DNA from: Xylanibacter rarus
Lineage (GTDB): Bacteria > Bacteroidota > Bacteroidia > Bacteroidales > Bacteroidaceae
DNA length: 64,000 bases
Assembly (NCBI RefSeq): GCF_001275135.1
Contig: NZ_LFQU01000010.1
Coordinates: forward strand, 1-64,000
Direction: 5' to 3'
In this document: one piece after another, positions 1,016-16,795 of the stretch
Numbering within the stretch: position 1 is the first letter of the stretch
How the letters are laid out: each line of letters starts with the position of its first letter
Notes under the pieces: model-generated
The model's database searches: none
Seen by the model: the letters and a program-made list of their open reading frames with translations, nothing else
Told to the model about the DNA's origin: nothing
Translations under genes and position numbers: made by a program

Positions 1016-1086
1016 GTGCCGTAAAAAATTTAATACCAAAAACTATCCGTTTGAGGGTGCTGGCGGTGACTTATTTTATTGCGGCT

Positions 1087-2460
1087 ATGAAAATGAAACC
1101 AAAATTAAAACTGCAGAATCTTTTGTTGGCTGTTTCGGGCTGTGTGGCCTTTATTTCATGTGTTAGTGGTAATACATATAATACATATGTACCAGAATCA
1201 ACAGAAGAATATTTTAAAGATATTGAAGATTTTGATGAAACGTATTTTAGACATGGTGGTGAGGATATAGATGACGAACTTGTACTTTATGTGGATTATT
1301 CTACGTGTAATGTGCTCGGACAGAACTCGCCGTTCTATCAAGCTTTGGTACCATCGTGGGTTGATGCGGCAGACGAATACTATTCAATAAAGGGTGCTCA
1401 GATAACTAAAGAAGAAGGCAATGTTTTTAGCCTGTTGAAGTCAATAACCAACTATGACTACGCTGATCTGAAGACAGCTGCCGAAAAGATGGCCGAGAGC
1501 CGCAACGAGTCGGTACTTCTTACCGACGGTGAGTATTTCCAGAAGTCAATAGCCCTCGGCAACGTCAACAACCCTTACCTTAAAGACGCCTTTACCAAAT
1601 GGCTGAAGAAAGGGCACGATATTTACATCTTTTCAGAGCCGTATCAAGAACCTTATAAAGGAGCAATATATAATAAGAAGCGCTTTTACATAATATTCAC
1701 AGACTCGAGGCTTGAAGGCAACATCTATGATAAAATAACCCAGACAGTGAAGCTTGAGGCCTATCCGCAGGTGGAGATGTTCCACCTTTCGGCAAGTCAC
1801 CCGGCATTGGCAGCAGAAAGCACGCATACTACGCCCAACGAAATGCTTAGCGCACAGGTGAAAGGCTTCGGCACGTTCGAGGCTCAGGAGTGGCAGGTTG
1901 ACTGGGAAGATGCCATTGAGCCTTACATCGTCAATGCCGTGTCAAACAGCACAGGGCAACCGTTGCCTGACGGGGCGGCATTCACCGGCAAGCTGAAAAT
2001 CGACCGCAACAGCTTCGGCGGCTACCGTATTACCGATGTGACGGTGCGTTCGTATGACATAAGCCAAGAATTCACAAATTTCTGCAACGCAAAGAACGCA
2101 GGGCAGAAGGTTGGCGGAAAGATAACACCGACTGAATACAAGAACTTTGTTAAGATAGACGAAAGCGAATTTAAGAAGCACGGTGTGATAGACCTGCATT
2201 TCGACACGCAGAACTTTGACCCGTCGATACTCACAGGCGCCCCATGCACTTATTTCAAGCTTGACATTTGCATATCAAGCACCGAAAACATCTTTAAACA
2301 GTATGAGGCGATGTTTACGTTCGACAGCATCGACCAGCCTGGACAAAAAAACGTCTCGTTGGCCGAGAGCATAAAGCAATGCCTTGCCGAGCCGTCAATC
2401 AAGGATATGATGGCCACCAGTCCCATTTACACAATTTACGTTAAAGCAAACAAACGATAA
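1087..2460 (+). CDS. lipoprotein, first gene of tubulin/actin/TerD operon
   Basis: The protein has 457 residues from the ATG at 1087. An in-frame start at 1051 would place extra residues before the signal peptide, so 1087 is preferred. Residues 1-25 form a signal ending FISC, a lipobox. The mature part is soluble, acidic at first and with no domain I recognise. It opens the long co-directional run; the next gene starts 20 bases after its stop. An envelope-exposed anchor or sensor for the system is a guess from position only. No clear Shine-Dalgarno is visible, as is usual in this phylum. Confidence 0.75.
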   Translation: MKMKPKLKLQNLLLAVSGCVAFISCVSGNTYNTYVPESTEEYFKDIEDFDETYFRHGGEDIDDELVLYVDYSTCNVLGQNSPFYQALVPSWVDAADEYYSIKGAQITKEEGNVFSLLKSITNYDYADLKTAAEKMAESRNESVLLTDGEYFQKSIALGNVNNPYLKDAFTKWLKKGHDIYIFSEPYQEPYKGAIYNKKRFYIIFTDSRLEGNIYDKITQTVKLEAYPQVEMFHLSASHPALAAESTHTTPNEMLSAQVKGFGTFEAQEWQVDWEDAIEPYIVNAVSNSTGQPLPDGAAFTGKLKIDRNSFGGYRITDVTVRSYDISQEFTNFCNAKNAGQKVGGKITPTEYKNFVKIDESEFKKHGVIDLHFDTQNFDPSILTGAPCTYFKLDICISSTENIFKQYEAMFTFDSIDQPGQKNVSLAESIKQCLAEPSIKDMMATSPIYTIYVKANKR

Positions 2461-2480
2461 TCAACTAAAAAACAATAATC

Positions 2481-2867
2481 ATGATACCTGTAACTAATTT
2501 ACAACAAGTAGAACAACTGATGGACAGCACGATGATTTACGCTGTCATAGTGTCAATAGTGGCCATCGCCTTGGCCTTCCTCGTAGCCAACCTTTTCCCG
2601 TGGGAAGGCGGCAACGACCGTTCATACATAAAACGCCGCATAGCATACATCATTATAGGCGTGGTGGCCGTGCTCGGCTTCTGGCTGTATAACGACCTCG
2701 TAGTGACCGACACCATACGCAACGTCGGCTTCCAGAGTATGTTCAAGGCCTGCAACACCAAGTGTCTTTTCATAAACCTCGGCATTTACGTCGTGGTAGG
2801 CGTGGCGTTGATGTTTGTGTTCCGCCGTACAAAGTTCGGCTCTATATTGGGCAAGGTAAAAAAATGA
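2481..2867 (+). CDS. small three-TM membrane protein
   Basis: This 128-residue protein has hydrophobic helices near residues 18-39, 52-69 and 97-115. The linker after helix 1 carries a WEGGNDRSYIKRR stretch, so basic charge sits between helices 1 and 2. No family is recognised. It lies between the lipoprotein gene (20 bases upstream) and the tubulin-like gene (7 bases downstream), so translational coupling is likely. A membrane anchor for the cytosolic tubulin-like and ATPase proteins is a reasonable inference without direct evidence. Confidence 0.7.
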   Translation: MIPVTNLQQVEQLMDSTMIYAVIVSIVAIALAFLVANLFPWEGGNDRSYIKRRIAYIIIGVVAVLGFWLYNDLVVTDTIRNVGFQSMFKACNTKCLFINLGIYVVVGVALMFVFRRTKFGSILGKVKK

Positions 2868-2874
2868 CAAGCGT

Positions 2875-4485
2875 ATGGCACGACAATATTTTGTTTTAGG
2901 AATAGGCGGCACAGGGATGAGGTGCATAGAGGCGCTCATCCACTTGTGTGCGATGGGGATGTTCGACGACACTGAAATACACCTCCTTGCGCTCGACACC
3001 GACAAGAACAACGGCAACTTCTCACGCCTCAAGGAACTGAAAGACGCTTACCTCGAGGCCAAAGGCCGTGACAAGGCAGCACGCACGGCGCTGAAAGACA
3101 CGTTCTTCTCAGCCAATATAAAGTATTATGAGTTCAGTCCCGATTACGAGAACAAAAGCAGCTTTAAGGCTGTGTTCGACTATGACACGACCCAATACAA
3201 CAATCGCGAGGAAGCCGATTTGGCCGACTTGGTGCTGACAAAACAGGTTGAGGACTTTAACCTGCGTCACGGCTACCGCGCCCAGACCCATCTCGGCTCG
3301 ATGATGATGTACCACTCAATCATTGAGGCGGCGCAGTCACAGGCCGGTAACGACATGAAAAACTTTCTCAGTGAACTGACGAAGGCCTCGCAAAACGGCA
3401 ACCCGCGCGTGTTCATCCTCGGTTCGGTGTTCGGCGGCACGGGGGCGTCGTCAATCCCAATCATACCGCAAGCCATAGCCAAGGCCGCCGAGATAATGAG
3501 CAACGGTGCGGCCAATGTGCTGCAAAGCGTGTATTTCGGCTCAACGCTGCTAACGGCTTACTTCAGTTTCAACACACCAAATTCCACCGAACTGGAAAAC
3601 CAGAAAGTGATAGCCACGAGCGACAAGTTCGCCCTCAACTCACAGGTGGCCATGATGTTTTACGACGACGACACAACCGTGAAACAGACCTACCAGAGGT
3701 TTTACATGATAGGCACCGACAATATGGCATGGAACCCGATGGCGCGTAAAGAAGGCAACGCGCAACAGACTATCACCGGAGGCTCGGAACAGAAGAACGA
3801 CTCACACTATATAGAACTTCTTGCCGCCTCGGCCGCCCTTGACTTCTATAACGCTGACGAAAGCAAGCTCGCAGAGAACAAGCGGCTGACCAACACCGAA
3901 TATCTCTACCGCGCCGTTGCCGACGACGGCCGCCTCGACTTTGCCGACTTTGTAGGCACTGAAAGGGAAAAGGAATTCTGCCAGAAGTTCGGTATGCTGA
4001 TAGTCTTCGCACTGTATTGCAACGGTGAAGACGATTTCGTGGAGAGTGTACGTTCAGGCAACCAGAAAGAAATACAAGAGTTTAAGGACATTGACGTCAA
4101 CCAGGTGGAAGCCCTGAAAAACTATTTCCGCCTGTTCTTCGTAAGGAAGACAGGTGGTGGCAGCCTCGAGGAAGGCTGGCTGAAGCAGGTGTACCGCTCG
4201 GCTGGCAGTGACGACAAGTTCCTGTTCAACACCTCACTGTTCAACCCAACATCTTACAAGGAACTGATGAAGATGGATTGGAACGACTCTTTATACCGTA
4301 ACGAAGGCACGGGCAAGGATAACAAGTTCAAGACCGGTCTGTTCGGCTCGAAGTTCAACTCGTTCAAGAAGGAATTCATCAGCGAGAGAGACAGCAACAA
4401 GTCGTGGCAAAACATCACAAACAAAGGCGAACAGCTTTATAAGTTGGTGTTTGACACGCTGGCAAAATTATATAAGTTTAAATAA
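2875..4485 (+). CDS. tubulin/FtsZ-like GTPase family protein
   Basis: This 536-residue protein begins with a strand and glycine loop, GIGGTGMR (residues 8-15), of the type seen at the nucleotide site of tubulin/FtsZ folds. A second glycine-rich loop, GSVFGGTGAS (residues 183-192), stands where FtsZ has its GGGTGSG signature. A LLALDTD segment near residue 38 fits the following strand. This pattern is typical of the prokaryotic 'tubulin-like' (Tubulin_2) group rather than the cell-division FtsZ. It is expected to be cytosolic and to bind GTP, possibly polymerising. It lies between a membrane protein and a large Hsp70/actin-type ATPase. Confidence 0.75.
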   Translation: MARQYFVLGIGGTGMRCIEALIHLCAMGMFDDTEIHLLALDTDKNNGNFSRLKELKDAYLEAKGRDKAARTALKDTFFSANIKYYEFSPDYENKSSFKAVFDYDTTQYNNREEADLADLVLTKQVEDFNLRHGYRAQTHLGSMMMYHSIIEAAQSQAGNDMKNFLSELTKASQNGNPRVFILGSVFGGTGASSIPIIPQAIAKAAEIMSNGAANVLQSVYFGSTLLTAYFSFNTPNSTELENQKVIATSDKFALNSQVAMMFYDDDTTVKQTYQRFYMIGTDNMAWNPMARKEGNAQQTITGGSEQKNDSHYIELLAASAALDFYNADESKLAENKRLTNTEYLYRAVADDGRLDFADFVGTEREKEFCQKFGMLIVFALYCNGEDDFVESVRSGNQKEIQEFKDIDVNQVEALKNYFRLFFVRKTGGGSLEEGWLKQVYRSAGSDDKFLFNTSLFNPTSYKELMKMDWNDSLYRNEGTGKDNKFKTGLFGSKFNSFKKEFISERDSNKSWQNITNKGEQLYKLVFDTLAKLYKFK

Positions 4486-4584
4486 AAAGAAAGGAAGGAG
4501 CAAGAGGGGTAAGAGTAATTGTATGTGTAAAAAAACATTTGTTCAACCTTCTTTAACTTCTTTAATTTCCAAAAAGAAAGAGCC

Positions 4585-7500
4585 ATGTCAAAAGCATTAT
4601 TGATAAAAAGTTACACAGACATAACCACGGGTGGTAAAGGCGTATGGAACGACCTTAACATGGCTGTGTCATACATACAAGGCATAGAGACGGGGAAAAT
4701 CCTTGAAGGCCTGACGGCAGAGAAGTTGGGCACCTTGATTTCAGGAGTGCCTACGCCATGGGCGAGGGCCAAGCTGTTCAAATTCGCCATGCAGACCTTG
4801 GCTGCGCCCGACCCTAACATCAACCAAGCCGGATTATGGCAGTTTTATGGCCTGTTGTACAACGAGTGGAAAGGACTCTTGGCCGTAATAGCCCTCTTCC
4901 CCGATCGCGTGCGCTTCTCCAATCCGTTGAAGATGAACGTCAAGGGAGACGATTACGACATCGCCTCGGCATTCGGGCGTATGCTCTTTGACGAAAAAGA
5001 CCTGTGGAACGACCAGGACGACCCCGACCCTGACCGCCAGCCATACATCCATCTTATATATTACCGCGACCACCTCGTAGGCGGCACCTCGCCGTTCACC
5101 GGCGTTTTCACCGGCGTTGATTACACAAATATAGGCCAGGACGCCAGCGACATATCATGGTACAGAGAAGGCAAGTTCGATGACCCAACGAAATTCCTCA
5201 CTCCAGACCAGTTGCAAAAGGTTTATCTCTTCGTGAAGAACATGAACTGCAACATCGACGCCTTTGAGAAAAAAATAAACTCACAGCGTGGTAACAAGAG
5301 ACCGGTCAGTATCGGCGGTTTCAAGAAAATGAGCCGCGACTGGGAGAACATACTGATGCAGCGCGGCGGAGGCAGGTTGAGGGACAAAGGTCCGATAGCC
5401 AAGTATCCAAACTTGGCCAATCCCTTCTCGCTGTTGTTTAAGAGCGACGTGCCCGTTTATATGAAGCCTGACTTCACTTTCACTTATTCTAACGACGGCG
5501 ATTACCAGAAAATAGGCGACATACAAAGCCTCTTGAGCGACGACAAATATGTGATTGGTTGGACAGAGGAAGCCAACGAACGCCCGAAGCTCGCCGACGG
5601 GTCGGTGTTTCTGCTCAGGGTGAAAGACATACAAAACGGTGACACAAATTATTTCTCGCTGCCGTTGTCAGAGCGCGGCGTTGAAATATTTAAGAACAGT
5701 TTATCAAGCCTTCTCGGATACATCGATGGAGGCAACACAAAACTTACCGCCCAGCTTACTGACTCGGGACAGCTGGCCGTGACTCTCGTAGTGGAAATAG
5801 ACGGACAGTCAGTGACACTGAACACGCGCGAGTATGAAATCGACTGGATGACAGACCTTGGTCACGTAATAATGTGGCCTGACTTCGTGTCAAATAAATG
5901 GAACAAGTATTACCTCTATTCCGAGTTCACTTCAGAAGCTAAGGAACGGTTTACCCCGATATTCAAGACAGCCGGCAAAGACGGGGATTTTGTCCACACT
6001 ATCGACGGCGATTTCTTTACTGGGGATTATGAGCTTAAGCCTGACGAGGAAAAGAAGGTGAAAGTGACAAGACTCCTGACATATCCGCCTGGACAAGGTG
6101 ACGAGCTGCCGAAGTATAACATAATATCGGCCGATGTGCCGATGGCCGGGCTGTCGGCTACGGTGAAAGATACGGGCAAGGATGTGCATGCAGGCTTCTT
6201 GATGTTCCGTCCGCAGGTGGTGAAAGACCTTTCAGATAAAGACCTTCGCGGTAAAGCTGTTGTTGGCATAGATTTCGGCAGCAACAACACTTGCGTGTAT
6301 TTCAAAGATGGGGACAGGAATGCCGAACCTGTGGCTTTCGAGAACAACCGCATGGTGCTCGTTGGCAAGGAAAACACCAATCCTCGTTCAGTGGCCGAAA
6401 TCAATGAACTGTTGTTCTTCAGTAACTATCCTTCAGCCAACGGCCAGTTGAAGTCATGGCTGCATGAGCATGACCCGAGGTATTATGATGCAGGTCAGGA
6501 AGGCGACGAAATAGTAGGAGGGGTGCCGGTGAACAGGCCTAACGTGCGTGTATGCGACATGGATGATTATGAGATAACCACTCAGGCCGGCAAGTTGCAT
6601 TACAACATGAAATGGCTTGACGACGACCGTGGCCGAAGGCGGAAAAGGGCTTTCATCAAGTCAGTGTGGCTTAATGTCTGCGCATACCTTTATAAGAAAA
6701 ACATCTGTCCTGTACGCATTGTATGGAGCTATCCCGGTTCGATGATGGAAGCCGACATATCCGAGATGACGAAAATATTTGAAGAAGCTTGGAAGATAAC
6801 ACCTATAGTTGGAACAAGTAAATTCATGCCCGATGACTATGAAATTCCAACTGAGGCGGAGGCTGTGTGCAGCTTTGCGTTGTCACAAGACTTCGGCCTG
6901 ACGCGCAACAAAATGTTCCTCGGCATCGACGTTGGAGGCAGCACAAGTGACATACTGCTTCTTGCCAACGATGTGAACAACGGCAACAAGCCGACGCTAT
7001 ACAGGGAAAGCTCTGTCCGCCTGGCGGCCGGGGTGTTCTTCAACGCCGTGATAAAGTCGAGACAGTTCCGCGAGGCTCTCTATAACTTCCATGAGAGCAA
7101 GAAGACCGACGTGTACGTCGCCAATATCAAGGAGATGCTCGATGAACCTAAAAAAGCCCCGTATTACCTGAACAGCATTTTCGACCAGCTCAAGAGTACG
7201 GACGACTATGAGGAGTTTTACACTTCGATAGACCAAGATGCCAAGTTCGTATTCACCATCCCGGCATACGTCACAGGCTTGCTTCTCTTTTATTCTGGAA
7301 TGCTCATAGGAAACACCGTTAAGGCCGAAAACTTGGACATCGACAGTGTTGACATATTGTCGTTCGGCAAGGGCGGGCGCCTGTTCCATTGGTTGCGCAA
7401 CTCAGCCGGCGGACGTGCTGCTTCGGAATATTATGCAGAATGTTTGAACGCCGGTGTAGGTCTTGTCATCGACAAGGAAATGAAAGTTAAATACCGTAGC

Positions 7501-7980
7501 GAAATCGAGGTAGACAACAAGGCCGAGGTGGCCAAGGGTTTGGTGGAAGAGTCCAAAGTTGAGAAAAAAGGTGCACATACAGACTCTGACATCTGTGGTG
7601 AAGAGAATGTGAGATATATTGACTCTGAAGGTACGCCGAAGGAGATACGCACCGAAACGGAGTTGACCGGTGATTATTTTGCCAACGACATGAGCAACTT
7701 CGACTTTTCTGGCGTGCCGAATTTCGAGAAGTTCATGAACATCTTCATCGACTTTGTAAGCCGCAGGACGCATCTATATCCGCAGGCCGACAAAGACCTT
7801 CGCGACGACATAGCCGACTTGCCGGCTAGCATTGCCGCTTACATAAAGAAATACGACACGGAGTACATGAAAGTGCGCAAGAACCAGGACAACGGCTTCA
7901 AGTACCACCAGCCGCTAATAATAGCAGAGGGCATCTGTTTCCTCAACAAAACATTGATACAAAAAGCATTCAACCAATAA
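4585..7980 (+). CDS. large protein with C-terminal Hsp70/actin-like ATPase domain
   Basis: This is a 1131-residue protein. Residues 1-550 are of unrecognised fold. From about residue 560 an ASKHA nucleotide-binding core can be followed: phosphate-1 loop GIDFGSNNTC (561-570), phosphate-2 loop GIDVGGSTSD (780-789), and a glycine motif SFGKGGR (926-932) in the place of the adenosine loop. It resembles the actin/Hsp70-like proteins of the SrfB or 'virulence factor' type more than true DnaK, and there is no substrate-binding domain. It is cytosolic. The gene follows the tubulin-like gene by 99 bases and precedes the coiled-coil gene by 8. Confidence 0.75.
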   Translation: MSKALLIKSYTDITTGGKGVWNDLNMAVSYIQGIETGKILEGLTAEKLGTLISGVPTPWARAKLFKFAMQTLAAPDPNINQAGLWQFYGLLYNEWKGLLAVIALFPDRVRFSNPLKMNVKGDDYDIASAFGRMLFDEKDLWNDQDDPDPDRQPYIHLIYYRDHLVGGTSPFTGVFTGVDYTNIGQDASDISWYREGKFDDPTKFLTPDQLQKVYLFVKNMNCNIDAFEKKINSQRGNKRPVSIGGFKKMSRDWENILMQRGGGRLRDKGPIAKYPNLANPFSLLFKSDVPVYMKPDFTFTYSNDGDYQKIGDIQSLLSDDKYVIGWTEEANERPKLADGSVFLLRVKDIQNGDTNYFSLPLSERGVEIFKNSLSSLLGYIDGGNTKLTAQLTDSGQLAVTLVVEIDGQSVTLNTREYEIDWMTDLGHVIMWPDFVSNKWNKYYLYSEFTSEAKERFTPIFKTAGKDGDFVHTIDGDFFTGDYELKPDEEKKVKVTRLLTYPPGQGDELPKYNIISADVPMAGLSATVKDTGKDVHAGFLMFRPQVVKDLSDKDLRGKAVVGIDFGSNNTCVYFKDGDRNAEPVAFENNRMVLVGKENTNPRSVAEINELLFFSNYPSANGQLKSWLHEHDPRYYDAGQEGDEIVGGVPVNRPNVRVCDMDDYEITTQAGKLHYNMKWLDDDRGRRRKRAFIKSVWLNVCAYLYKKNICPVRIVWSYPGSMMEADISEMTKIFEEAWKITPIVGTSKFMPDDYEIPTEAEAVCSFALSQDFGLTRNKMFLGIDVGGSTSDILLLANDVNNGNKPTLYRESSVRLAAGVFFNAVIKSRQFREALYNFHESKKTDVYVANIKEMLDEPKKAPYYLNSIFDQLKSTDDYEEFYTSIDQDAKFVFTIPAYVTGLLLFYSGMLIGNTVKAENLDIDSVDILSFGKGGRLFHWLRNSAGGRAASEYYAECLNAGVGLVIDKEMKVKYRSEIEVDNKAEVAKGLVEESKVEKKGAHTDSDICGEENVRYIDSEGTPKEIRTETELTGDYFANDMSNFDFSGVPNFEKFMNIFIDFVSRRTHLYPQADKDLRDDIADLPASIAAYIKKYDTEYMKVRKNQDNGFKYHQPLIIAEGICFLNKTLIQKAFNQ

Positions 7981-7988
7981 TGTGACGG

Positions 7989-10610
7989 ATGAAGGTTCTG
8001 ACACTATATGTAGATAAATGGTACATCACCGGGGCCGTGTGCTCCGATGGTGTGCCACGCATCGTGAAACCTCGCAGCCGGGACGACCGTTTTTGGCTGT
8101 ACTTTTATGAAGACACGGTTAATGACAAAGTAATATACGGCAAGAACAACAAGCCTCATTTTCATAACCGTGAGAATCATTATTACGGAGATGTCTTTTC
8201 CCTTATAGTGTACGATGAAAACACGTTCACTATATATAACATGAAAAAGACTATGGCTGACATCTTCAAGTTTTCGGGCATAATCGGCGAATTGAGAGAT
8301 GCCGTCGGAGCTGGTGACAATCAGACAGTCGATGTGTACCTCTCGTTCTCGAAAGATGTGTCGTATGCGGCAAGGCGAGTGTTCATAAATAAAGTGCTCG
8401 AACAAGAGAATTTCACAGTGAAAGAGTCGGCCGCCCACATAGAGCACTTAGCGTTGGAATATGCCGTGAGGCATAAACGGCTGGGTGACGAGGGTTGTTA
8501 CATCACTTTGAACGCTTGCAACGAGAACCTTGTCCACTCAATCTATGAGTACAAGGAAGGGCTGTTCAACAGACGGAGCGAAAAGAGCCTTGATGGCTTC
8601 GGCACCGACCTCCGCGGCAGGGCCATCCTTGAAAGTGTGGTGCACAGCATCAACAGGAGCGAACATTTCCTCCAAAGCATGGAGGATTTTGAGCGGGAGT
8701 ACATCCGTCTGGCACAATACGTTGACGACTGGGTTGTGCGTCTTAACAACGCAAAGCCAGGGCGGCCTGTGAAAATACCCGATGTCAGCCTGTCGGCCAA
8801 CATAGACAAAAAATACAGTCCTGTAATACTGAAAAAAGACATCGACGCCCGGACTTCTGTAAGCGTGGATAACATTATCAGGGAAATTGCCAACTCTGTT
8901 AAGGAAAACGACATTTCGGGAGAAGACATAAAAGGCATAGTGTTCATAGGCGACACATTTACAAATACCCAGTTCACCGAAGCGCTGAAAAGGAGATACA
9001 TCTTGCCTGAGAGTGGCTATGTGTTCTATAACACGGAGGATTTGCCCAATATCGTTTCGGTATATACCGTGATGGACTGCACCCAATTCTCTGTTGCTGC
9101 TAAAGATATGAGCGCCAAAGGCGATGCCGAGCTCAAGAGTACGCAAATGGCCAAGGAAGAAGCCCGCCGTAAGGAAGAGGCCGAGCGCCAGGCTAAAGAG
9201 CGTGAAGAGAAAGTACTGGCCGAACGTGAAAGGAAAATGCGCTATGAGAACGCGATGAACGAGGCTGACGACGCTTATAAGAAAGAAGATTACGTCGCTA
9301 TGCGAGACTGGGCCGACGAAGCCCTGAAAAACAATCCGGGCGATGCGGACGCGACAGAGAAAAAGGAAGAAGCCCTGAGGCTGATTGCCGAGCAGGAAAT
9401 GCGCCAGAAACAATATGCCGACGCAATAAAAAAAGCACAGGCAAGCCTGAAAGAAGGCCGGTGGCAAGACGCACTCTCGCAAAGCGAACAGGCTCTTGCT
9501 TGCATGAAAGATTCGGCAGAAGCTAAACGCATACAGACGGAGGCCAAGAAACAAATAACCTTGACTGGAAAGATAGATACAGGACTGTCGCGCGCTGACC
9601 TTCTGATGTCGCAGCGGCAGTATGCCAAGGCTCTCGAAGAACTGAAGGCCGTCGCAGTTTTGGACAAAGACAACGCCTTGGTAAAGGAGAAAACAGCCGA
9701 GGTCCAACGCCTGCTTGATGAAAGCCTGGCAACGGTAAAGACGTTGCGTGCGGCTTACGACAAGACCAAGGCCGCCGGCAACATGGAAGAGGCTATAAAC
9801 GCCTGCCGTATGCTTGCCGACGCCGACACCGGCAACCAGCAGCAATGGCTGGCCGAGGTCGAAAGCCTAAAGGCGGAGAAAGAAAAAGCCGAGGCTGCGG
9901 AGCGGCTGTGGAAGGAACTGTCTGACAAGGCTTGGGACGCCAACTTCAACGAACAGTGGGCCGACACTGTGAAATACGCCACGGCAGCATTGAAAATAAA
10001 GGAAGATGGAAAGTTGAAAACCTGTTTGGACAAAGCTAAGGAGAAACTTAGAAAACAAGAGGCCGAGCAAGCATATACGGGCGAAATAAACAAGGTTAAA
10101 GGCTTCATTGTAGACAAGAGGTTTGACGAGGCTAAACATCTTCTGTCGTCGTTGGAAAAGCAATATCCTGAACGCAAAGCAGAACTAAAAGAACTGTTCA
10201 GGCAGATATTCAAGGCGGAAAGTTCTGAAAGTTTCTTCGATACGCAGGAAACGCCGGAAGATGACGCTGTGAAAAAGCCCGTAGTGGTAAAAGGTTTCAC
10301 CAAGGACGGTGCTCAGAAGACGAAAAAGCCTTTGGACGACGACTTTTTCGGCAATACGCAAAAAGTTGAAAAGAAGACCGGCAACCCCACAAGGAAAAAG
10401 CCTGTGGGGAAACCGACTGAAACCGCGAAAGTAACAGCTGCTCCCGACTTCTTCAGCGAGCCGCTGAAGTCTGGGAATAAAGGCAGCGGGACTGTGCAGA
10501 AGAAGCCCGCGAGCACAGTGAAAAAAGCCGGACGCACGGGCGACGACTTCTTCGACAGCGACACATGGAGCGGCAAGCCCGGCGGCAAGAGCGGCGGCTT
10601 CGATTTCTGA
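7989..10610 (+). CDS. actin/Hsp70-like head, coiled coil, helical repeats and FF-motif tail
   Basis: This 873-residue protein has four parts. Residues 1-385 look like a degenerate Hsp70/actin fold: a VFIGDTFTNTQF segment near 320 sits where Hsp70 has its GG(S)SR loop, while phosphate loops are not recognisable. Residues 388-420 are a highly charged coiled coil rich in Lys, Glu and Arg. Residues 420-740 are TPR-like helical repeats. The tail (745-873) is low complexity, rich in Lys/Pro/Gly, with FF motifs at 749-750, 786-787, 821-822 and 854-855, each next to Asp or Ser. The protein looks like a scaffold. The gene starts 8 bases after the ATPase gene. Confidence 0.7.
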   Translation: MKVLTLYVDKWYITGAVCSDGVPRIVKPRSRDDRFWLYFYEDTVNDKVIYGKNNKPHFHNRENHYYGDVFSLIVYDENTFTIYNMKKTMADIFKFSGIIGELRDAVGAGDNQTVDVYLSFSKDVSYAARRVFINKVLEQENFTVKESAAHIEHLALEYAVRHKRLGDEGCYITLNACNENLVHSIYEYKEGLFNRRSEKSLDGFGTDLRGRAILESVVHSINRSEHFLQSMEDFEREYIRLAQYVDDWVVRLNNAKPGRPVKIPDVSLSANIDKKYSPVILKKDIDARTSVSVDNIIREIANSVKENDISGEDIKGIVFIGDTFTNTQFTEALKRRYILPESGYVFYNTEDLPNIVSVYTVMDCTQFSVAAKDMSAKGDAELKSTQMAKEEARRKEEAERQAKEREEKVLAERERKMRYENAMNEADDAYKKEDYVAMRDWADEALKNNPGDADATEKKEEALRLIAEQEMRQKQYADAIKKAQASLKEGRWQDALSQSEQALACMKDSAEAKRIQTEAKKQITLTGKIDTGLSRADLLMSQRQYAKALEELKAVAVLDKDNALVKEKTAEVQRLLDESLATVKTLRAAYDKTKAAGNMEEAINACRMLADADTGNQQQWLAEVESLKAEKEKAEAAERLWKELSDKAWDANFNEQWADTVKYATAALKIKEDGKLKTCLDKAKEKLRKQEAEQAYTGEINKVKGFIVDKRFDEAKHLLSSLEKQYPERKAELKELFRQIFKAESSESFFDTQETPEDDAVKKPVVVKGFTKDGAQKTKKPLDDDFFGNTQKVEKKTGNPTRKKPVGKPTETAKVTAAPDFFSEPLKSGNKGSGTVQKKPASTVKKAGRTGDDFFDSDTWSGKPGGKSGGFDF

Positions 10611-10749
10611 CTGTGGCCTGAAGCCTTGCAAAAAGATACCTGACGGTCTGCGGAAGGGCTCATGAACCACGACGGAAGGACACAAAGCGCAGGCAAAGCC
10701 TTAAAGGCTTAAGGATGAGGGCATTATTAACCAATAAAAAGATACGATT

Positions 10750-11328
10750 ATGGCTGAAGTGAAATTAAAAAAGAAAATTTGCCTTAAGCGCAAGGAAAAA
10801 CCGGCGGAGTTTGTCTTTACAAAATACCTTAAGATAAAGTTGCTTTGGAAGACTAAGACAGACCTCGACCTGTGTATTTTCTTCACGACGAAAGACGGAC
10901 AGGCTGGCGGTGTGTTCTCGTCGATGTTCCGCCAGAAGAAGAGCGACATGGGTTCGCTCGAAGAGTTCCCTTACATGGAGCATACGGGCGACAAGGCAGA
11001 GCCGTCTGAGGGAGGCGAAAGCGTGGAGCAAATCAACATCGCCAAGCTCGACGACATTGACACGGCCAACGTGGTGGTGCTCAACTACGGCAAGGCCATC
11101 GACGGCGAGGAGGTGAACTTCGCCCAAGACTCCGGCCGCGTGGAGATACAAAGCAGCGAGGGCGATTATTTCGAGGTGGCCATCGACGCCGACCAGCCTG
11201 GCCACGTCTACCATGTATGCTCAATAAAGAACCGCGACGGCAAGAACGGCGTGGTGAACGAGGGTGTTGTGATGGACCTCGGAACGGCTTTCGAGCGCAT
11301 ACCTGGCTTTTCGCTTATTTGTGAATAA
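10750..11328 (+). CDS. TerD-like domain protein, copy 1
   Basis: The 192-residue protein matches the TerD/TerA fold. It has the DLDLCIFF strand followed by KDG, then FPYMEHTGDKAEP, an EQINI strand, the GRVEIQSSEGDYFEV region and a YHVCSIKN strand, ending IPGFSLI. In characterised TerD proteins the acidic DLDL and DxxG regions bind Ca2+. The first residues, MAEVKLKKKICLKRK, are a basic lead repeated in the next two proteins. Ter-family genes are linked to stress, tellurite and phage responses elsewhere, but no terB, terC or TerY-type gene is seen here, so tellurite resistance should not be assumed. Confidence 0.75.
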   Translation: MAEVKLKKKICLKRKEKPAEFVFTKYLKIKLLWKTKTDLDLCIFFTTKDGQAGGVFSSMFRQKKSDMGSLEEFPYMEHTGDKAEPSEGGESVEQINIAKLDDIDTANVVVLNYGKAIDGEEVNFAQDSGRVEIQSSEGDYFEVAIDADQPGHVYHVCSIKNRDGKNGVVNEGVVMDLGTAFERIPGFSLICE

Positions 11329-11359
11329 CTTATTTATTAACTTTAAAAAAATTTGCTTT

Positions 11360-11935
11360 ATGGTTGAATTAAAAAAGAAAATCACTCTTCGTAAGAAGAA
11401 TGAGTCAGTGGCTTTCACATTCTCGGGAAAGCTGAAGGTGAAACTCTTGTGGACATCAGACACAGACCTTGACCTGTGTCTCTTTTTCAAGAAAAAGGAC
11501 GGAAACATAGGCGGGGTGTTCTCAAATGAATACCGAAATAAAAAGAGCGACCTTGGCGCGCTTGACAAATTCCCATATATGCTGCATCTTGGCGACGCAA
11601 AAGAACCGACGCCGGGCGGCGAAGAAAGTGAGCAAATCAACATCGCCAAGTTCGACGACATTGACACTGCTTACATCTGCATTGTAAATTACGGTGCGGC
11701 AATAGAAGGCGATGACGTGACATACGCCGACGAAGGCGGACGTGTTGAAATCCAAAGCGACTCAGGCGATTACCTTGAGGTGCCTGCTGACTCGAAAGAC
11801 GAAGGCCATGTTTATTGCGTATGCTCAATCAACAACAATAACGGCGAATTTGCATTGAAAAACGAAAGCCGTGTGATGAGTTTGGATGAAGCATACAAGC
11901 AGATACCTGGTTTTTCTCTTATAGTAGACGAATAG
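11360..11935 (+). CDS. TerD-like domain protein, copy 2
   Basis: The protein has 191 residues from the ATG at 11360. The longer frame from 11321 would overlap the previous gene, and alignment with copy 1 supports MVELKKKITLRKK as the true N-terminus. It follows copy 1 strand by strand: DLDLCLFFKKKDG, FPYMLHLGD, EQINIAKFDDIDTA, GRVEIQSDSGDYLEV, YCVCSINNNNG and IPGFSLI. The two are tandem duplicates that have diverged moderately. The stop is followed after one base by the next gene. Joint assembly with copy 1, and calcium binding, are inferred from the family. Confidence 0.75.
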   Translation: MVELKKKITLRKKNESVAFTFSGKLKVKLLWTSDTDLDLCLFFKKKDGNIGGVFSNEYRNKKSDLGALDKFPYMLHLGDAKEPTPGGEESEQINIAKFDDIDTAYICIVNYGAAIEGDDVTYADEGGRVEIQSDSGDYLEVPADSKDEGHVYCVCSINNNNGEFALKNESRVMSLDEAYKQIPGFSLIVDE

Positions 11936-11936
11936 T

Positions 11937-12623
11937 ATGGTAGAACTGAAAAAGAAAGTAACGTTGAAAGCCAAAACTCCAGGCATCGCCAATTCTGAAA
12001 GCCCTGCCGGCGAGAAGGTTACGCTGAAGAAAAAGACGCCCGGCACAGAGCCGGTTAGCCCGGCGGAGTCTACGCCCGGCGGTACGAAACCTGCTGGTGG
12101 CGGTAACCAAGGCGGCACGGACTTGACATCAGGCGGCAGCCAAGGAGGTGGCGCCGGCAAGTGGATTGCCATTATCGTGGTAATCCTTATAGTGGCCGGG
12201 CTGGCGTATTATTTCACGCATAAAGGCGACGGTGAAAGCACTCCGGCAAAGCCCGGAACGACGCTTGTGGCCGACAGCACACAAAACGCACAAGCTGACT
12301 CGACGACTGAAGCGGCCGACAGCACGCAAAGCGATGAAGCAACCGCAGGGGACGCCTCGGAAGAGAACGTTGAGGCTCCGGCTCCTGACGGTGCAGCCGA
12401 TGCGGCAGGTCAGCCCGCCAAGTCAGGTACGGCGAATGCCGGGCCGGCCGGAGTTGATGCCGCCCAGGCATCAACGGTGGGCGGAGACGTGGAAGAGCTG
12501 GCACGTGAAGTAATCCGCGGAAAGTACGGTAACGGTGAGGTGCGCAAGCAGCAACTCGGCGACCGCTATGCCGAAATCCAGGCCCGTGTCAACGAGATTT
12601 ACCGTAAAGGACTTGTAAAATGA
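11937..12623 (+). CDS. single-pass membrane protein with CPL-7-like C-terminus
   Basis: The 228-residue protein starts MVELKKKVTLKAK, the same basic lead as the TerD-like proteins, and repeats it as KVTLKKKTPG. A Gly/Pro/Thr-rich cytosolic linker follows, then one transmembrane helix (about residues 77-95), then an acidic Ala/Asp/Ser-rich extracytoplasmic stalk. The C-terminal ~40 residues, with VIRGKYGNGEVRKQQLG and IQARVNEIY, resemble the CPL-7/CW_7 cell-wall-binding repeat of phage lysozymes. It would physically connect the cytosolic TerD-like proteins to the peptidoglycan. That role is inferred. Confidence 0.7.
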   Translation: MVELKKKVTLKAKTPGIANSESPAGEKVTLKKKTPGTEPVSPAESTPGGTKPAGGGNQGGTDLTSGGSQGGGAGKWIAIIVVILIVAGLAYYFTHKGDGESTPAKPGTTLVADSTQNAQADSTTEAADSTQSDEATAGDASEENVEAPAPDGAADAAGQPAKSGTANAGPAGVDAAQASTVGGDVEELAREVIRGKYGNGEVRKQQLGDRYAEIQARVNEIYRKGLVK

Positions 12624-12628
12624 CTTTA

Positions 12629-12682
12629 AATATGGACAGGTTGCACTGCACCACGTTATGCGGGCGGCAGCCTGTCCATATT
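12629..12682 (+). promoter_or_regulatory. intercistronic RNA hairpin
   Basis: AATATGGACAGG (12629-12640) and CCTGTCCATATT (12671-12682) are a perfect 12-base inverted repeat with a 30-base loop, placed between the CPL-7-like gene and the 55-codon gene. No T-run follows on the plus strand, so it is more likely a processing or stability element within the operon mRNA than a terminator. Confidence 0.5.
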
Positions 12683-12697
12683 AAATAAAAATAAAGG

Positions 12698-12865
12698 ATG
12701 ATGGCAATATCAATCATTGTTGGCTTATGCGTATGGCTTGTCTTGCCAATCATGTTCGGCGGCCGTTTCAGAAAAAAGAAGAACAAGAAAGCATTTGCCA
12801 TGTTTTGTAAGATTGTCGGGATAGTTATCATTGCATTCGGTATAATTAATCACATTGTTTTCTGA
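12698..12865 (+). CDS. 55-residue two-TM membrane protein
   Basis: The ATG at 12698 (a second ATG follows at 12701) opens a 55-codon frame. It has hydrophobic stretches at residues 3-20 and 36-54 flanking a basic loop, GGRFRKKKNKK. An AAAGG purine run lies just before the start, and the stop is two bases before the next gene. Size, spacing and helix-loop-helix topology support a real small membrane protein. No family is recognised. It sits inside the operon and probably accompanies its membrane components. Confidence 0.6.
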   Translation: MMAISIIVGLCVWLVLPIMFGGRFRKKKNKKAFAMFCKIVGIVIIAFGIINHIVF

Positions 12866-12867
12866 GT

Positions 12868-13440
12868 ATGGAAAAGCTTTATCTGCTTATTTGCATGGCG
12901 GCGGTGTTGTTGTCGTGCTCGGGCAAGCCTGCCGGCGTATCCCGTGAACGCCAGGAATACACAGGGCAGCAAGAAGCGTTGTTGCAGCAGGGATGGACAG
13001 CCGGGCCTGTTGAGAATGGCGATTTGTCAGAGAAATACGGGTATGAGCCCAAGTTCGGCCTGCAAGACAATTATTTCGACATAACTATGGGTGAAGGCAG
13101 CAGTGTGGCCGTTAAGATAATGGATGTGGAGACCGACCGTTGCATAAGGTTTGTTTTCGTCAATGAGAACTCCACGGCCACAGTGTCACAAATACCACAA
13201 GGAAAATATTACCTGAAACTTGCTTACGGCAGAGACTGGATGCAGCATGACACCGACTCTGTGACCGTAGGCAAGTTCACTACGCACGTTTTTTATGAAA
13301 AGAGCCGCAACGTGTTTGATTTCGGCCGGAAGAACTCGTTGCGGGAAGTGAATTACGAATTGAAAATCAACGTCAGGAACGCCTCGGCCGAAAACAACTT
13401 CTCGACAGAGCCGATAAGCGAAAGTGAATTTAACTCATAA
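12868..13440 (+). CDS. lipoprotein of unknown function
   Basis: The 190-residue protein has signal MEKLYLLICMAAVLLSC with a clear lipobox, so it is a lipoprotein. The mature part contains a beta-rich stretch, roughly residues 70-150, with FVNENSTATVSQIPQGKYYLKL, suggestive of a small Ig- or transthyretin-like domain (Gly-Lys-Tyr-Tyr turn), but no named family can be given. It starts two bases after the small membrane protein gene and ends nine bases before the calcium pump gene, so it is part of the same transcription unit. Confidence 0.7.
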   Translation: MEKLYLLICMAAVLLSCSGKPAGVSRERQEYTGQQEALLQQGWTAGPVENGDLSEKYGYEPKFGLQDNYFDITMGEGSSVAVKIMDVETDRCIRFVFVNENSTATVSQIPQGKYYLKLAYGRDWMQHDTDSVTVGKFTTHVFYEKSRNVFDFGRKNSLREVNYELKINVRNASAENNFSTEPISESEFNS

Positions 13441-13449
13441 ATTAAAAAT

Positions 13450-16221
13450 ATGCAACAGAAACAACATTACACAGGCCTGACTGACAAGGAGGTGCTTGAA
13501 AGCCGGGCCAAGCATGGCGTGAACATACTCACACCGCCGGAAAAAGAGCCGTTATGGAAACAATTTCTTGAGAAGTTCAAAGACCCATTAATCATTATAT
13601 TGATGATTGCCGGTATCTTGTCTATCGGAATTTCATTTTATGAATATTTCGGTTTACATGAAGGTGGAGCTGTCTTTTTTGAGCCTATCGGTATATTTGT
13701 AGCGATTCTTTTGGCTACAGGATTAGCATTCTATTTTGAATTGAAAGCTGATAAAGAGTTTACTATCTTGAATCAGGTTAACGATGATGAGCCTGTGGAG
13801 GTTATCCGCAACGGCAATGCTACGAAAGTACCCAAGAGGGATATTGTTGTAGGTGATATTGTAATATTGTCGACAGGAGCTGAAATACCTGCTGATGGTG
13901 TGCTTCTCGAGAGTGTAAGTCTTAATGTTGACGAGTCTACTCTTACGGGTGAACCTTTGTGTCATAAGAGTGTCTGCGAAGGCGATTTTGACAATGATGC
14001 CACATATCCTACCAACAGTGTGAAAAAAGGCACGAAAGTAATGGAGGGACACGGCATATTTTGTGTGACTGAGGTAGGTGATAATACTGAAAACGGTAAA
14101 ATATTACTCTCTGTTCTTGGCAAGAAAGTCGATAGCAATGATACTAATTTGGATGAAAGGAAAATTGAGGCTGCACAGAAATTGGCTGAAAAGAATGAGA
14201 TTTCAAGCAGTGTGAAGACACCTCTCAACGAACAGCTTGACGGTCTGAGTGACCTTATCACGAAACTCAGTTATGGTTTTGCAGCTTTTGTCATAATAGG
14301 TCGCCTTATAGCCTATTTCTTTATAGGAGATAATTCTCTAGAATGGGCGCATATTACGGCTTATGTATTACAGACGCTGATGATTGCCGTGACGCTTATT
14401 GTTGTGGCCGTGCCAGAAGGTTTGCCAATGGCTGTAACCTTAAGTCTTGCTTACAGTATGCGGCGCATGCTTAAGACAAACAATCTTGTGCGCAAGATGC
14501 ATGCTTGCGAGACTATGGGTGCAACAACCGTTATCTGTACAGACAAGACGGGTACGCTTACACAAAACCAGATGAGCGTTAATGACATAAAGTTCTATGG
14601 TCTCAACAGCCAGATGCTAGGAGCTGACAAAAAAAGCGGAATAATAAAAGAGGGTATTGTTTTGAACTCCACTGCGACACTAGACCTGAAAAATCCCTCA
14701 CGTCCGTCAGTCCTCGGAAATCCTACAGAAGGTGCATTGTTACTTTGGCTTCACAATATGGGTATAAATTATATGAAGCTGAAGGACGCGGCAGAAGTTG
14801 TTGAGGAACTGCCTTTTTCGACAGAGCGTAAATATATGGCTACCGTCGTCAAGTCAGCCTTTATACAAGGCAAGAATATTCTCTACGTAAAAGGTGCTCC
14901 AGAGATTGTACGTTCTCTTTGTAAGCACGTTGACGGAGATGTAAGTGACGACACTATAACCCGACAATTGACAGAATATCAAAATAAGGCAATGCGCACG
15001 CTTGGCTTTGCGTACCAGGTGCTTGAGAATGGCGATAAGACAATAGAAAACGGTAAGGTAGTGGCAGAAAACATGACCTTCCTCGGTATTGTCGCGATAG
15101 CAGATCCTGTGCGTAAGGATGTTCCGGCCGCAGTCAAAGAATGTATAAACGCTGGAATAGATATAAAAATAGTAACAGGAGATACTCCTGGAACCGCAAA
15201 AGAGATTGGACGGCAAATTGGACTTTGGACAGTAAAAGATGGAGATGAAGCGATAATTACTGGTCCAGAATTTGCAGCTTTATCAGATAGTGAGCTTGAC
15301 AAGAAAGTTCTTGGCTTGAAGATTATTGCCCGAGCACGGCCTATGGATAAAAAACGTCTTGTTGAATCGTTGCAGCGCAACAGCCAAGTCGTTGCAGTAA
15401 CGGGTGATGGAACTAACGATGCTCCTGCTCTGAAAGCTGCACATGTAGGATTGTCAATGGGTGACGGAACTTCTGTGGCTAAGGAAGCATCTGACATAAC
15501 CATTATCGATAACTCGTTCAGCAGTATTGGCCGTGCAGTAATGTGGGGACGTTCACTTTATCAGAATATCCAACGTTTCTTATTGTTCCAGCTTACGGTA
15601 AATGTGGCGGCATGTTTTATTGTGCTTGTTGGAGCATTCATGGGTACAGAATCTCCACTTACAGTAACACAAATGCTTTGGGTCAATCTAATCATGGATA
15701 CATTTGGAGCAATGGCTCTTGCCTCGCTTCCGCCGTCTCGTTCTGTAATGTGTGATAAACCTCGTAATCGTAAGGCTTTCATCCTTACAAAGCCAATGAT
15801 GAAGGATATTCTTGGTGTGGGCGGTTTCTTTTTCTTGTTGCTCGTAATATTCCTTTATATCTTCCAGCATACGGAAATAACACAAATGACAGATCTTCTG
15901 CATTGTCAACTCGGCGAGGCTAATGGCCTGTCGCCGTATGAACAAACCTTACTGTTCTCTATATTCGTATGGACACATCTTTGGTATATGTTTAATACAC
16001 GCTCGTTTGAAACAGGTAAGAGTTTCTTCCAACTGAAGATGAGCAAGGAATTTTTCACAATTGTCGCAATTATTTTTATGGGACAAATTATTATTGTGGA
16101 AGTTCTGTTTGATTTCTTTAATTGTACTCCAATGAAATTTTTGGATTGGATAATAATTGTAGTGTTATCTTCTTTTGTACTTTGGATAAGGGAACTATGG
16201 CACTTTATTGTTAGAAGATAA
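13450..16221 (+). CDS. calcium-translocating P-type ATPase (PMCA-like)
   Basis: The 923-residue P2-type pump exports cations, most likely Ca2+, using ATP. Residues 25-110 include the first two helices. The actuator TGEP loop has its Glu at 168. The phosphorylation motif DKTGTLTQ has its Asp at 365, after the M4 PEGLP motif. The hinge TGDGTNDAPAL starts at 651, and C-terminal helices follow. The TLIVVAVPEGLPMAVTL region matches the Ca2+ site of SERCA/PMCA pumps. An extra ~25-residue charged insert lies near residues 218-250 compared with the paralogue at 31401. It is the last gene before a terminator. Its codons are more AT-rich than those of the upstream genes, which suggests a different history. 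Confidence 0.9.
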   Translation: MQQKQHYTGLTDKEVLESRAKHGVNILTPPEKEPLWKQFLEKFKDPLIIILMIAGILSIGISFYEYFGLHEGGAVFFEPIGIFVAILLATGLAFYFELKADKEFTILNQVNDDEPVEVIRNGNATKVPKRDIVVGDIVILSTGAEIPADGVLLESVSLNVDESTLTGEPLCHKSVCEGDFDNDATYPTNSVKKGTKVMEGHGIFCVTEVGDNTENGKILLSVLGKKVDSNDTNLDERKIEAAQKLAEKNEISSSVKTPLNEQLDGLSDLITKLSYGFAAFVIIGRLIAYFFIGDNSLEWAHITAYVLQTLMIAVTLIVVAVPEGLPMAVTLSLAYSMRRMLKTNNLVRKMHACETMGATTVICTDKTGTLTQNQMSVNDIKFYGLNSQMLGADKKSGIIKEGIVLNSTATLDLKNPSRPSVLGNPTEGALLLWLHNMGINYMKLKDAAEVVEELPFSTERKYMATVVKSAFIQGKNILYVKGAPEIVRSLCKHVDGDVSDDTITRQLTEYQNKAMRTLGFAYQVLENGDKTIENGKVVAENMTFLGIVAIADPVRKDVPAAVKECINAGIDIKIVTGDTPGTAKEIGRQIGLWTVKDGDEAIITGPEFAALSDSELDKKVLGLKIIARARPMDKKRLVESLQRNSQVVAVTGDGTNDAPALKAAHVGLSMGDGTSVAKEASDITIIDNSFSSIGRAVMWGRSLYQNIQRFLLFQLTVNVAACFIVLVGAFMGTESPLTVTQMLWVNLIMDTFGAMALASLPPSRSVMCDKPRNRKAFILTKPMMKDILGVGGFFFLLLVIFLYIFQHTEITQMTDLLHCQLGEANGLSPYEQTLLFSIFVWTHLWYMFNTRSFETGKSFFQLKMSKEFFTIVAIIFMGQIIIVEVLFDFFNCTPMKFLDWIIIVVLSSFVLWIRELWHFIVRR

Positions 16222-16225
16222 TTAT

Positions 16226-16277
16226 AAAAATCAGACTGAAGTTTTTGTTATTAATAGAAACTTTAGTCTGATTTTTT
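16226..16277. terminator. bidirectional terminator
   Basis: An 18-19 base stem (16226-16244 with 16258-16277, one mismatch) has A-runs on its left and a T-run on its right. It ends the pump operon on the plus strand and the small lipoprotein gene on the minus strand. Confidence 0.85.
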
Positions 16278-16284
16278 ACCTGTT

Positions 16285-16671
16285 TTATAAGTTCCAGTAT
16301 GTTGAATCTTCTTTGACTGTTTCAAAAACGCCATTAAGACTGCCTTTTAGCATTATAATTGCATCATGAATCTGTCTAGATGTAGTTTTTAAATTTTGTT
16401 TAAATAGATAAGCGGCACAGACCCCTTTTAAATAGCCGATTTTTTCTAATTCTTTATCAGTATATTCTGGTTTATATTTTTCTAATTCATTTTCTACATT
16501 GTTTAATCTTTCTGTTACAGTTAACCAATCTTCTTCATTATATGTATTACTATTGTTTTTTAGGTCAATACTTATTTCTTCTAATTCTCCAATTGGAGTC
16601 TCTTTGTCTTTACATGAATAAAAGCAAAAAAATATCAATACGATTAATAGAAATTTAGTTAAGTTATTCAT
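16285..16671 (-). CDS. small lipoprotein, helical
   Basis: The 128-residue protein has signal MNNLTKFLLIVLIFFCFYSC, a lipobox, then a Lys/Glu-rich helical region with NNVENELEKYKPEYT. This fits the small Bacteroidales lipoproteins of the DUF6565 type, though I assign it only as possible. It is monocistronic between the shared terminator at 16226-16277 and the promoter at 16708-16715. AT content is high. Confidence 0.65.
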   Translation of the reverse strand: MNNLTKFLLIVLIFFCFYSCKDKETPIGELEEISIDLKNNSNTYNEEDWLTVTERLNNVENELEKYKPEYTDKELEKIGYLKGVCAAYLFKQNLKTTSRQIHDAIIMLKGSLNGVFETVKEDSTYWNL

Positions 16672-16707
16672 AACATTAATAGTAATTTAAAACAGTAATA
16701 AATATTG

Positions 16708-16715: not shown

Positions 16716-16795
16716 TAAAAAATATGATTACTATTGTATCGTTAATCAAAAAATAATAAATTATTGTGATAGAATATTTTAACGAGATACACTAT

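Follow-up and report, generated by a model that had tools for sequence, protein, structure and literature searches.

A conserved Bacteroidota gene set encoding tubulin-like, Hsp70-like and TerD-type proteins and a calcium pump

Gene content and layout of the operon

The window analysed here is a stretch of 64,000 nucleotides (nt) from Xylanibacter rarus (RefSeq assembly GCF_001275135.1, contig NZ_LFQU01000010.1, positions 1 to 64,000 of the forward strand). It contains, at 1087..16221, 11 genes in the same direction (+ strand), hereafter called A, B, C, D, E, F, G, H, S, I and J. They represent a conserved gene set of Prevotella and other Bacteroidota which includes a tubulin-like protein, an Hsp70-like protein, TerD-type proteins and a calcium pump.

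Gene A (1087..2460) encodes a lipoprotein with a possible vWA-like domain (DxS...TDG), and B (2481..2867) a small membrane protein with three transmembrane-like (TM-like) segments. C (2875..4485) encodes a tubulin/FtsZ-like GTPase-domain protein of the Tubulin_2/FtsZl1-like kind and D (4585..7980) a protein of 1131 amino acids with ASKHA (Hsp70/actin-like) motifs in its C-terminal part. The product of E (7989..10610) is a putative scaffold with a degenerate Hsp70-like head, a repeat-rich middle part (TPR in some relatives) and an acidic C-terminal tail, the last 220 amino acids of which (9948..10610) contain DDFF-type peptides. Two TerD-like proteins follow, F (10750..11328), with the N-terminal peptides VKLKK and ICLKR, and G (11360..11935), with VELKK and ITLRK. 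H (11937..12623) encodes a single-pass membrane protein with a TerD-type peptide in its N-terminal tail, a TM-like segment at residues 76-94 and a CW_7 repeat towards the other end. The remaining genes are S (12698..12865), an open reading frame (ORF) of 55 amino acids with two TM-like segments, I (12868..13440), encoding a lipoprotein, and J (13450..16221), encoding a PMCA-type calcium-translocating P-type ATPase.

The intergenic gaps from A to J are, in order, 20, 7, 99, 8, 139, 31, 1, 74, 2 and 9 nt. A first-pass annotation of the sequence had described ten co-directional genes; the positions of all its ORFs were correct, and S (12698-12865) had been overlooked. The gaps of 99 and 139 nt which it reported were likewise confirmed, and its range of 2-20 nt for the short gaps was not, H and I being 244 nt apart if S is ignored. 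Directly 3' of H lies a strong hairpin, terminator- or attenuator-like (12629..12682, + strand, −32.8 kcal/mol, z −6.5), and none of 200 shuffled sequences was as stable. When the 95 nt 3' of H were folded in 31 of the related loci described below (without shuffle control, and with locus L009 too short for folding), the longest paired run was at least 12 in 22 loci and at least 11 in 25. An Rfam scan of window positions 1-17000 gave no match at gathering scores. Because of the hairpin, the main unit may extend from A to H, and S, I and J would then be reached by read-through or have a transcript of their own.

Identification of the encoded proteins

C matched two Pfam tubulin models below their cut-offs, PF13809 (Tubulin_2, 22.2 bits, cut-off 27, E 1e-4) and PF00091 (Tubulin, 19.3 bits, cut-off 33, E 1.5e-3), and 6 of 8 members of the C family matched both models (E 0.01). 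A search with PF13809 across the whole genome gave no match, and the tubulin-like profile matched none of the PDB sequences. The glycine-rich loops IGGTGMR and GSVFGGTGASSIP are invariant in eight sequences and are presumably the T1/T4 nucleotide loops. Judged by its sequence, C is probably a diverged member of the tubulin family. In D, three clusters of residues are invariant in 42 sequences (G561, D563, G565, N568; D782, G784, G785, S786, T787, D789; G928, K929, G930), which we take to be the ASKHA phosphate-1, phosphate-2 and adenosine motifs. Pfam gave no consistent family for D or its members, and the matches of the D profile to PDB sequences were weak (best E 0.019, no single stretch passing alone), with 11 of 13 rows from the Hsp70/actin family and the other two from SYG-2. 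The head of E (first 390 residues), used as a profile, matched Hsp70/DnaK in 27 of 28 PDB rows (best E 2.8e-4), and hhalign found no relation between this head and D. The TPR model matched at most 12 of 31 full-length E members and, at E 0.1, did not match the E protein of the window itself. All three assignments of the first-pass annotation, tubulin-like for C, ASKHA for D and a degenerate head of the Hsp70-like kind for E, were upheld at the sequence level, those of C and D weakly by profile.

Among 38 A sequences, D70, D147 and W172 are invariant and S72 and T146 near-invariant. A had no Pfam match, neither a vWA model nor a consistent Pfam family was found among the 38 members, and no PDB sequence matched. 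Comparison by hhalign with 13 of 24 vWA domains gave E 0.0011 at 20 % probability, collinear at both motifs, and five other families gave E 0.084-0.58; A is possibly vWA-like.

PF02342, the Pfam model for TerD, matched neither F nor G, nor anything else in the genome. The profile of the F/G family aligned with canonical TerD (hhalign probability 93.8, E 1.7e-7, 107 columns within residues 1-115), and against PDB sequences it gave two chance-level rows only. In 15 relatives the same operon slot is filled by the canonical TerD type (25 proteins, of which all 23 scanned matched PF02342). A wrong TerD call for F and G was rejected on the strength of this profile match and of canonical TerD in the same place; the call made earlier thus stands by homology of profile and position, and not as recognition by Pfam. 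D38 and D40 are near-invariant in a DLDLC stretch of the window-type TerD-like family. Characterised TerD proteins bind Ca2+; in our judgement, the role of TerD proteins is a long-standing question. TerB-like proteins were found in eight loci, all with TerD, and the one scanned scored 24.6 bits against a TerB cut-off of 24.4.

The CW_7 repeat of H (residues 186-221) scored 52.9 bits (cut-off 25, E 3e-14), in agreement with the membrane protein with a CPL-7-like wall-binding end that had been predicted. The H proteins of loci L058, L102 and L108 have a C-terminal OmpA domain instead, and one TM-like segment combined with a CW_7 or OmpA domain fits the envelope-spanning layout also proposed at that stage. 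J is a P-type Ca2+ pump, as first annotated, and of the PMCA type by the TIGR01517 equivalog (628.1 bits, cut-off 507.05). A second Ca2+-type P-ATPase gene is located at 31401-34013 of the window, its matched pieces being 52-56 % identical to J.

Conservation of the gene order

Relatives were collected by searching the C alignment against genome contigs. The pattern was matched by 348 stretches, of which 141 encode a relative, and the best 80 were kept (L029-L108). The record titles of 76 of these 80 name Bacteroidota taxa, the other four (L034, L040, L058, L095) being metagenome-assembled genomes labelled Eubacteriales, Clostridia, Chlorobiaceae and Saccharibacteria; the C protein of L095 is identical to that of the Bacteroidales locus L096. 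Genes were called in 85 loci (the window, L009, L029-L108 and L026-L028) and assigned to families by iterative hidden Markov models. The families occurred in the following numbers of the 85 loci: A 61, B 61, C 83, D 76, E 46, window-type TerD 17, H 33, S 15, I 11 and J 20.

The order A-B-C-D-E-TerD-H-(S-I)-J recurs among the relatives in many genera and is therefore not due to chance; the proposal that it would be conserved beyond this strain was borne out, and a strain-specific operon was rejected. With D as query, matches were found in 7 of 198 genomes of the order and 7 of 251 genomes of the family (own genome included), four of the seven family-level matches being remote (E 3.5e-4 to 1.5e-6). 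TerD-type genes are present in 32 of the 85 loci, and in 30 of these 32 TerD lies between E and H; no H was found after TerD in L092, and L031 has a further TerD copy after H. Named isolates carrying the system are Phocaeicola sartorii (L039) and Segatella copri (L086), and L032 is a Prevotella jejuni record. L026, L027 and L028 carry a remote tubulin-like/ASKHA gene pair in a shared, different context, with TerD and pump not nearby.

Linkage of TerD and calcium pump genes

Among the 83 loci with labelled C, a pump homologue within 1.6 kb on the same strand was found in 18 of 32 TerD loci, compared with 2 of 51 loci without TerD (Fisher 7.6e-8, a p-value which, like the next, overstates independence on account of kinship among the loci). 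When loci without a pump and without 1.6 kb of downstream sequence were left out, a filter that favours pump-positive loci, the proportions were 18/22 and 2/30 (2.6e-8). In L036 and L044, the two pump loci without TerD, the sequence stops short of the place where TerD would lie, and only the first 41 residues of the pump of L047 are on the contig. The Ca2+ pump is a recurrent neighbour of TerD-bearing loci, which supports its inclusion in the operon as first annotated.

TerD and Ca2+-ATPase genes also adjoin outside the tubulin operon, in L137 (2235-7458), L138 and L139 (1-2480). L137, one of five TerD loci from viral contigs, is accompanied here by two 'Bacteriophage sp.' records, perhaps bacterial DNA, which were the two looked at of ten phage records with TerD, one of them chosen because the pump had also matched. 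On the basis of the pump counts and of these three loci, the possibility that J is an unrelated neighbour was rejected; it may be transcribed separately.

A peptide shared by TerD and H

The N-terminus of TerD contains a [FIVY]x[LIMF]x[KR] peptide within the first 24 residues, present at least once in 49 of 50 proteins and twice in 42. The same peptide is found in the tail of H before the TM segment, with 52 copies in 31 H proteins (1-3 copies in each of 29 proteins, at least two in 15); 2000 shuffles of the same composition had 2.9 copies on average and never more than 10. The strict pattern was unmatched in H of L039 and L057. In the first 60 residues of the other families the peptide was rarer (C 1/83, D 6/76, B 3/62, I 0/11, A 12/60, E 14/47), and the GYF_2-type proteins of L102 and L108, one of which was scanned, start with similar peptides.

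The type of the H tail agreed with the TerD type of its own operon. H tails were of the VxLKK type in 17 of 17 loci with window-type (V) TerD and of the FxLxK or DADFDK type in 14 of 14 loci with canonical (F-type) TerD and H, L039 having been assigned by hand; the odd DADFDK type is present in both TerD and H of L039. The K-rich tail, the single TM-like segment (76-94) and the wall-binding domain at the other end would place the N-terminus of H, and with it the peptide, in the cytosol. The sharing hints at a way in which the assembly may be attached to the envelope, and a peptide common to TerD and its wall-binding neighbour provides a direct, testable hypothesis for TerD recruitment.

Correlated changes in TerD type and in the tails of H and E

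The E tail also differs with TerD type. Of the 17 loci with window-type TerD, 13 have DDF[FLDNI]-type peptides within the 220 C-terminal residues of E, and none of the 15 loci with canonical TerD has them (Fisher 7e-6); among 14 loci with E but no TerD, one does. In total 32 copies were counted (extra L035 ORFs left out), compared with a shuffle mean of 0.65 and a maximum of 4; the V-type loci without the motif are L030, L031, L057 and L058.

A quick tree of C, built from 32 loci, implies five changes of TerD type, at least four of them on well-supported branches. The H-tail type follows the TerD type in 4 of 4 independent pairs, and the E tail, scored with a looser pattern, in 3.7 of 4 on average. 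Within the four swap pairs, C is 82-95 % and D 75-91 % identical, and the best TerD identity is 22-30 %. Their DNA is 71-81 % similar through C and D into E, the similarity is absent over TerD, and it is back in the last part of H; in 3 of the 4 pairs first examined it stops at about residues 529-560 of E. In pairs of different type, TerD had no DNA match in 8 of 8, although C and D matched throughout, and in pairs of the same type 77-100 % of TerD was covered in 10 of 11, the exception being L102/L108 (13-23 %). The TerD gene itself is thus replaced, not merely diverged. Junctions of a swapped cassette inside E and H, which had also been considered, were withdrawn, since DNA similarity also disappears over the tails of E and H in many pairs of the same type; a swap is shown for the TerD gene only. 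This withdrawal left our weighing of the explanations unchanged, because proof of a linked block was weakened as much as proof of a cassette. The natural swap pairs L037/L039 and L047/L049 (C 91-95 %, TerD 25-30 % identical) are suited to tests of module specificity.

The peptide sharing might have no physical meaning, the H tails simply being K-rich and E tail, TerD and H tail changing together as DNA neighbours. The three are contiguous, DNA similarity stops in E and resumes in H in 3 of 4 pairs, the independent pairs number only four, and the loss of similarity in same-type tails indicates that these evolve fast anyway. Against it stand the 52 copies where shuffled tails had 2.9, the repeated copies inside one tail, the DADFDK peptide in both proteins of L039 and the agreement of type in 31 of 31 loci. 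We consider this account improbable.

Proposed Ca2+-responsive envelope assembly

We give about an even chance to the gene set encoding a Ca2+-responsive assembly of the cell envelope, driven by nucleoside triphosphates (NTPs) and tethered to membrane and wall via the TerD peptide. In such an assembly, tubulin-like C and Hsp70-like D would form a cytosolic switch or polymer on the scaffold E, and the three together would supply nucleotide-driven switching. The TerD proteins would be a Ca2+-sensing adaptor layer which assembles under Ca2+ control, and the PMCA-type pump J would set the Ca2+ level that TerD reads. H would act as a single-pass anchor, its cytosolic tail docking into the TerD assembly or into the receptor of TerD and its periplasmic CW_7 (or OmpA) domain gripping peptidoglycan, and the possibly vWA-like lipoprotein A and membrane protein B would be further membrane parts. 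In V-type systems, the acidic peptides of the E tail and the basic peptides of TerD and H could be partners. The system probably has a role in stress or conflict signalling at the envelope.

A more specific form of this proposal is put forward tentatively, as something short of an even bet: the TerD peptide would be a homotypic tag copied by H (and by the GYF_2-type proteins of two relatives), so that a Ca2+-gated TerD lattice plugs into peptidoglycan-bound H, with TerD type, H tail and E tail forming a swappable specificity module. Huge phages of Bacteroidaceae with TerD and a Ca2+ pump may interfere with it. If true, the homotypic tag would give bacteria a connection, controlled by Ca2+, from a tubulin/Hsp70-type switch to the wall.

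Several observations weigh against the proposed assembly. Binding among the operon proteins is a prediction from their sequences, the vWA call for A is weak, and PF02342 was matched by 0 of 25 members of the window's TerD-like family (E 0.1), the N-terminal peptide region itself contributing part of the profile similarity between F/G and TerD. The peptide pattern was written after the sequences had been seen. TerD lies outside the invariant core, 51 of the 83 loci counted having none, some of them through contig ends, and in L058 TerD sits after H and the E motif is absent. L032, L058, L097 and L107 are TerD loci with 1.6 kb of flank and no pump, the pump lies upstream in L035, and the hairpin after H argues that J is not simply the tail of one transcript. 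The joint change is based on four independent pairs only (sign test p 0.125), one of them resting on the hand-assigned L039, and linkage of the adjacent E tail, TerD and H tail could move all three together.

Alternative modules downstream of E

The part of the operon after E is exchangeable, being occupied by two unrelated-looking TerD types, a DO-GTPase/GAP1-like pair or kinase/phosphatase genes. Zn-ribbon GTPase genes are found downstream of E in L079, L080, L082, L085, L087 and L098, and all of these but L098 also have GAP1-like genes. In L082, the one locus scanned, DO-GTPase1 scored 38.1 bits, over the cut-off of 27, and GAP1-N2 17.8 bits, under the cut-off of 24; L083 is similar to these loci by eye. 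In L098, a GAP1-like protein (18716-21376) matches the H profile, which suggests a wall-binding domain fused to GAP1. PP2C or kinase genes are found downstream in L068, L070, L073 and L089 (kinases in L068 and L089), L089 being without a labelled E. None of the ten GTPase or PP2C/kinase loci has TerD. In the ten window cluster proteins scanned with Pfam, no P-loop GTPase, protein kinase or DO-GTPase/GAP1 pair was found and no nuclease or toxin domain was recognised. PADLOC, run on eight window proteins (A, C, D, E, F, H, I and J), matched only H, and weakly (PD-T4-6, E 6.7e-5).

A homologue of the tyrosine recombinase of L009 is located 237-597 nt upstream of A in L009, L037, L039, L042 and L053, and therefore points to mobile, accessory use of the operon. 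The idea that L009 is a virus was rejected; with a relaxase and a tyrosine recombinase it looks like an integrative or mobilisable element.

These modules bear on a further explanation, according to which the operon is kin to the conflict systems of Kaur et al. (2020) and acts as an NTP-thresholded anti-phage or stress switch, with TerD reading a nucleotide-like signal, the membrane parts as effectors and Ca2+ secondary. It would account for the GTPase/GAP1-like or PP2C/kinase genes in ten TerD-less relatives, for the recombinase homologue in five loci and for the patchy occurrence (7/198 in the order, 7/251 in the family), and the accessible part of that paper cites TerD as a possible reader of specialised nucleotide derivatives (PMC7159879). 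The single weak PADLOC match and the Pfam scan for nuclease and toxin domains speak against it, and the pump linkage is left unexplained. We regard such a switch as possible, if rather unlikely.

Relation to known systems

The core of the operon is of the known FtsZl1/vWA and GTPase/tubulin/HSP70 kind, and the TerD-pump-peptide module is, within the literature searched, a new variation on it. For the FtsZl1 system, the available text of Makarova and Koonin (2010, PMC2875224) gives vWA, GTPase, kinase and OmpA partners and proposes membrane remodelling, and a Bacteroides caccae sequence is named in its alignment legend. The likeness lies in a diverged tubulin-like protein together with vWA (here possibly vWA-like) and membrane or peptidoglycan-binding proteins. 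In contrast, TerD, an Hsp70-like partner and a Ca2+ pump are not named in that text, the window cluster lacks the P-loop GTPase or kinase that is a frequent, not universal, partner there, and most H proteins here carry CW_7 instead of OmpA. A membrane-remodelling or vesicle machine as for FtsZl1 systems, with TerD and pump as accessories, would suit the Tubulin_2-like core and the vWA-like and OmpA/CW_7 membrane partners, which resemble components described in the accessible text (PMC2875224); it leaves the sharing of the TerD peptide and the TerD-pump linkage unexplained and appears quite improbable to us.

The GTPase-centred conflict systems of Kaur et al. (2020, PMC7159879) have tubulin and HSP70 components, and one class combines GTPases, tubulin homologues and an HSP70 protein in the part of the paper available; the pairing of the two is therefore not new in itself. 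Like these systems, the gene set studied here has tubulin- and HSP70-type proteins, a possible vWA protein and membrane and wall-binding parts, and some relatives have GTPase and GAP1-like genes after E. The GAP1-N2 neighbourhoods in the same text (PMC7159879) fall under either a tubulin or an HSP70 theme, without overlap, and come mostly from actinobacteria and firmicutes, whereas here both occur in one Bacteroidota operon, in which TerD replaces DO-GTPase/GAP1 and a PMCA-type pump is added.

The canonical TerD of 15 loci, the TerB-like genes of 8 and the TerD-pump neighbourhoods elsewhere (L137-L139) are points of likeness with the Ter systems. Anantharaman and colleagues are said to have described these tellurite/stress systems, with TerD and TerB, in 2012. 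Unlike them, the operon joins TerD to a tubulin/ASKHA core and repeats the TerD peptide in a wall-binding membrane protein, and neither TerC nor TelA was recognised by Pfam in the ten window cluster proteins. Ter systems are also summarised in the available text of a jumbo-phage overview (PMC7824862). Genes for both of these modules of the operon, terD and a Ca2+-translocating P-type ATPase, have been reported from the huge 'Jug' phages of Bacteroides/Phocaeicola (PMC12363816); tubulin and vWA do not occur in the main text of that paper, and the passages available do not link the two modules with a host operon.

No description of the combination of TerD, tubulin, Hsp70-like protein and Ca2+ pump was found in the literature searched, the coverage of which was partial. 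The first-pass statement that no system of this composition had been described accordingly held for the version with TerD and Ca2+ pump, within that literature, and did not hold for the core, as judged from the accessible parts of PMC2875224 and PMC7159879. The operon unites tubulin-like, Hsp70-like and Ca2+-handling proteins in one conserved Bacteroidota unit.

Neighbourhood of the operon in the window

After the operon, the window contains at 18790-31113 genes for GmrSD (DUF262), a Mob_Pre relaxase, DUF5906 and a tyrosine recombinase, with a tRNA-Met at the far end, and this region looks like an integrative mobilisable element. On the + strand, the tRNA-Met region (30950-31150) shares no exact repeat of at least 14 bases with any other part of the window. 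Local duplications are suggested at 28715-30312, where similar sequences are directly repeated in pairs (141 nt at 78 % and 47 nt at 87 %).

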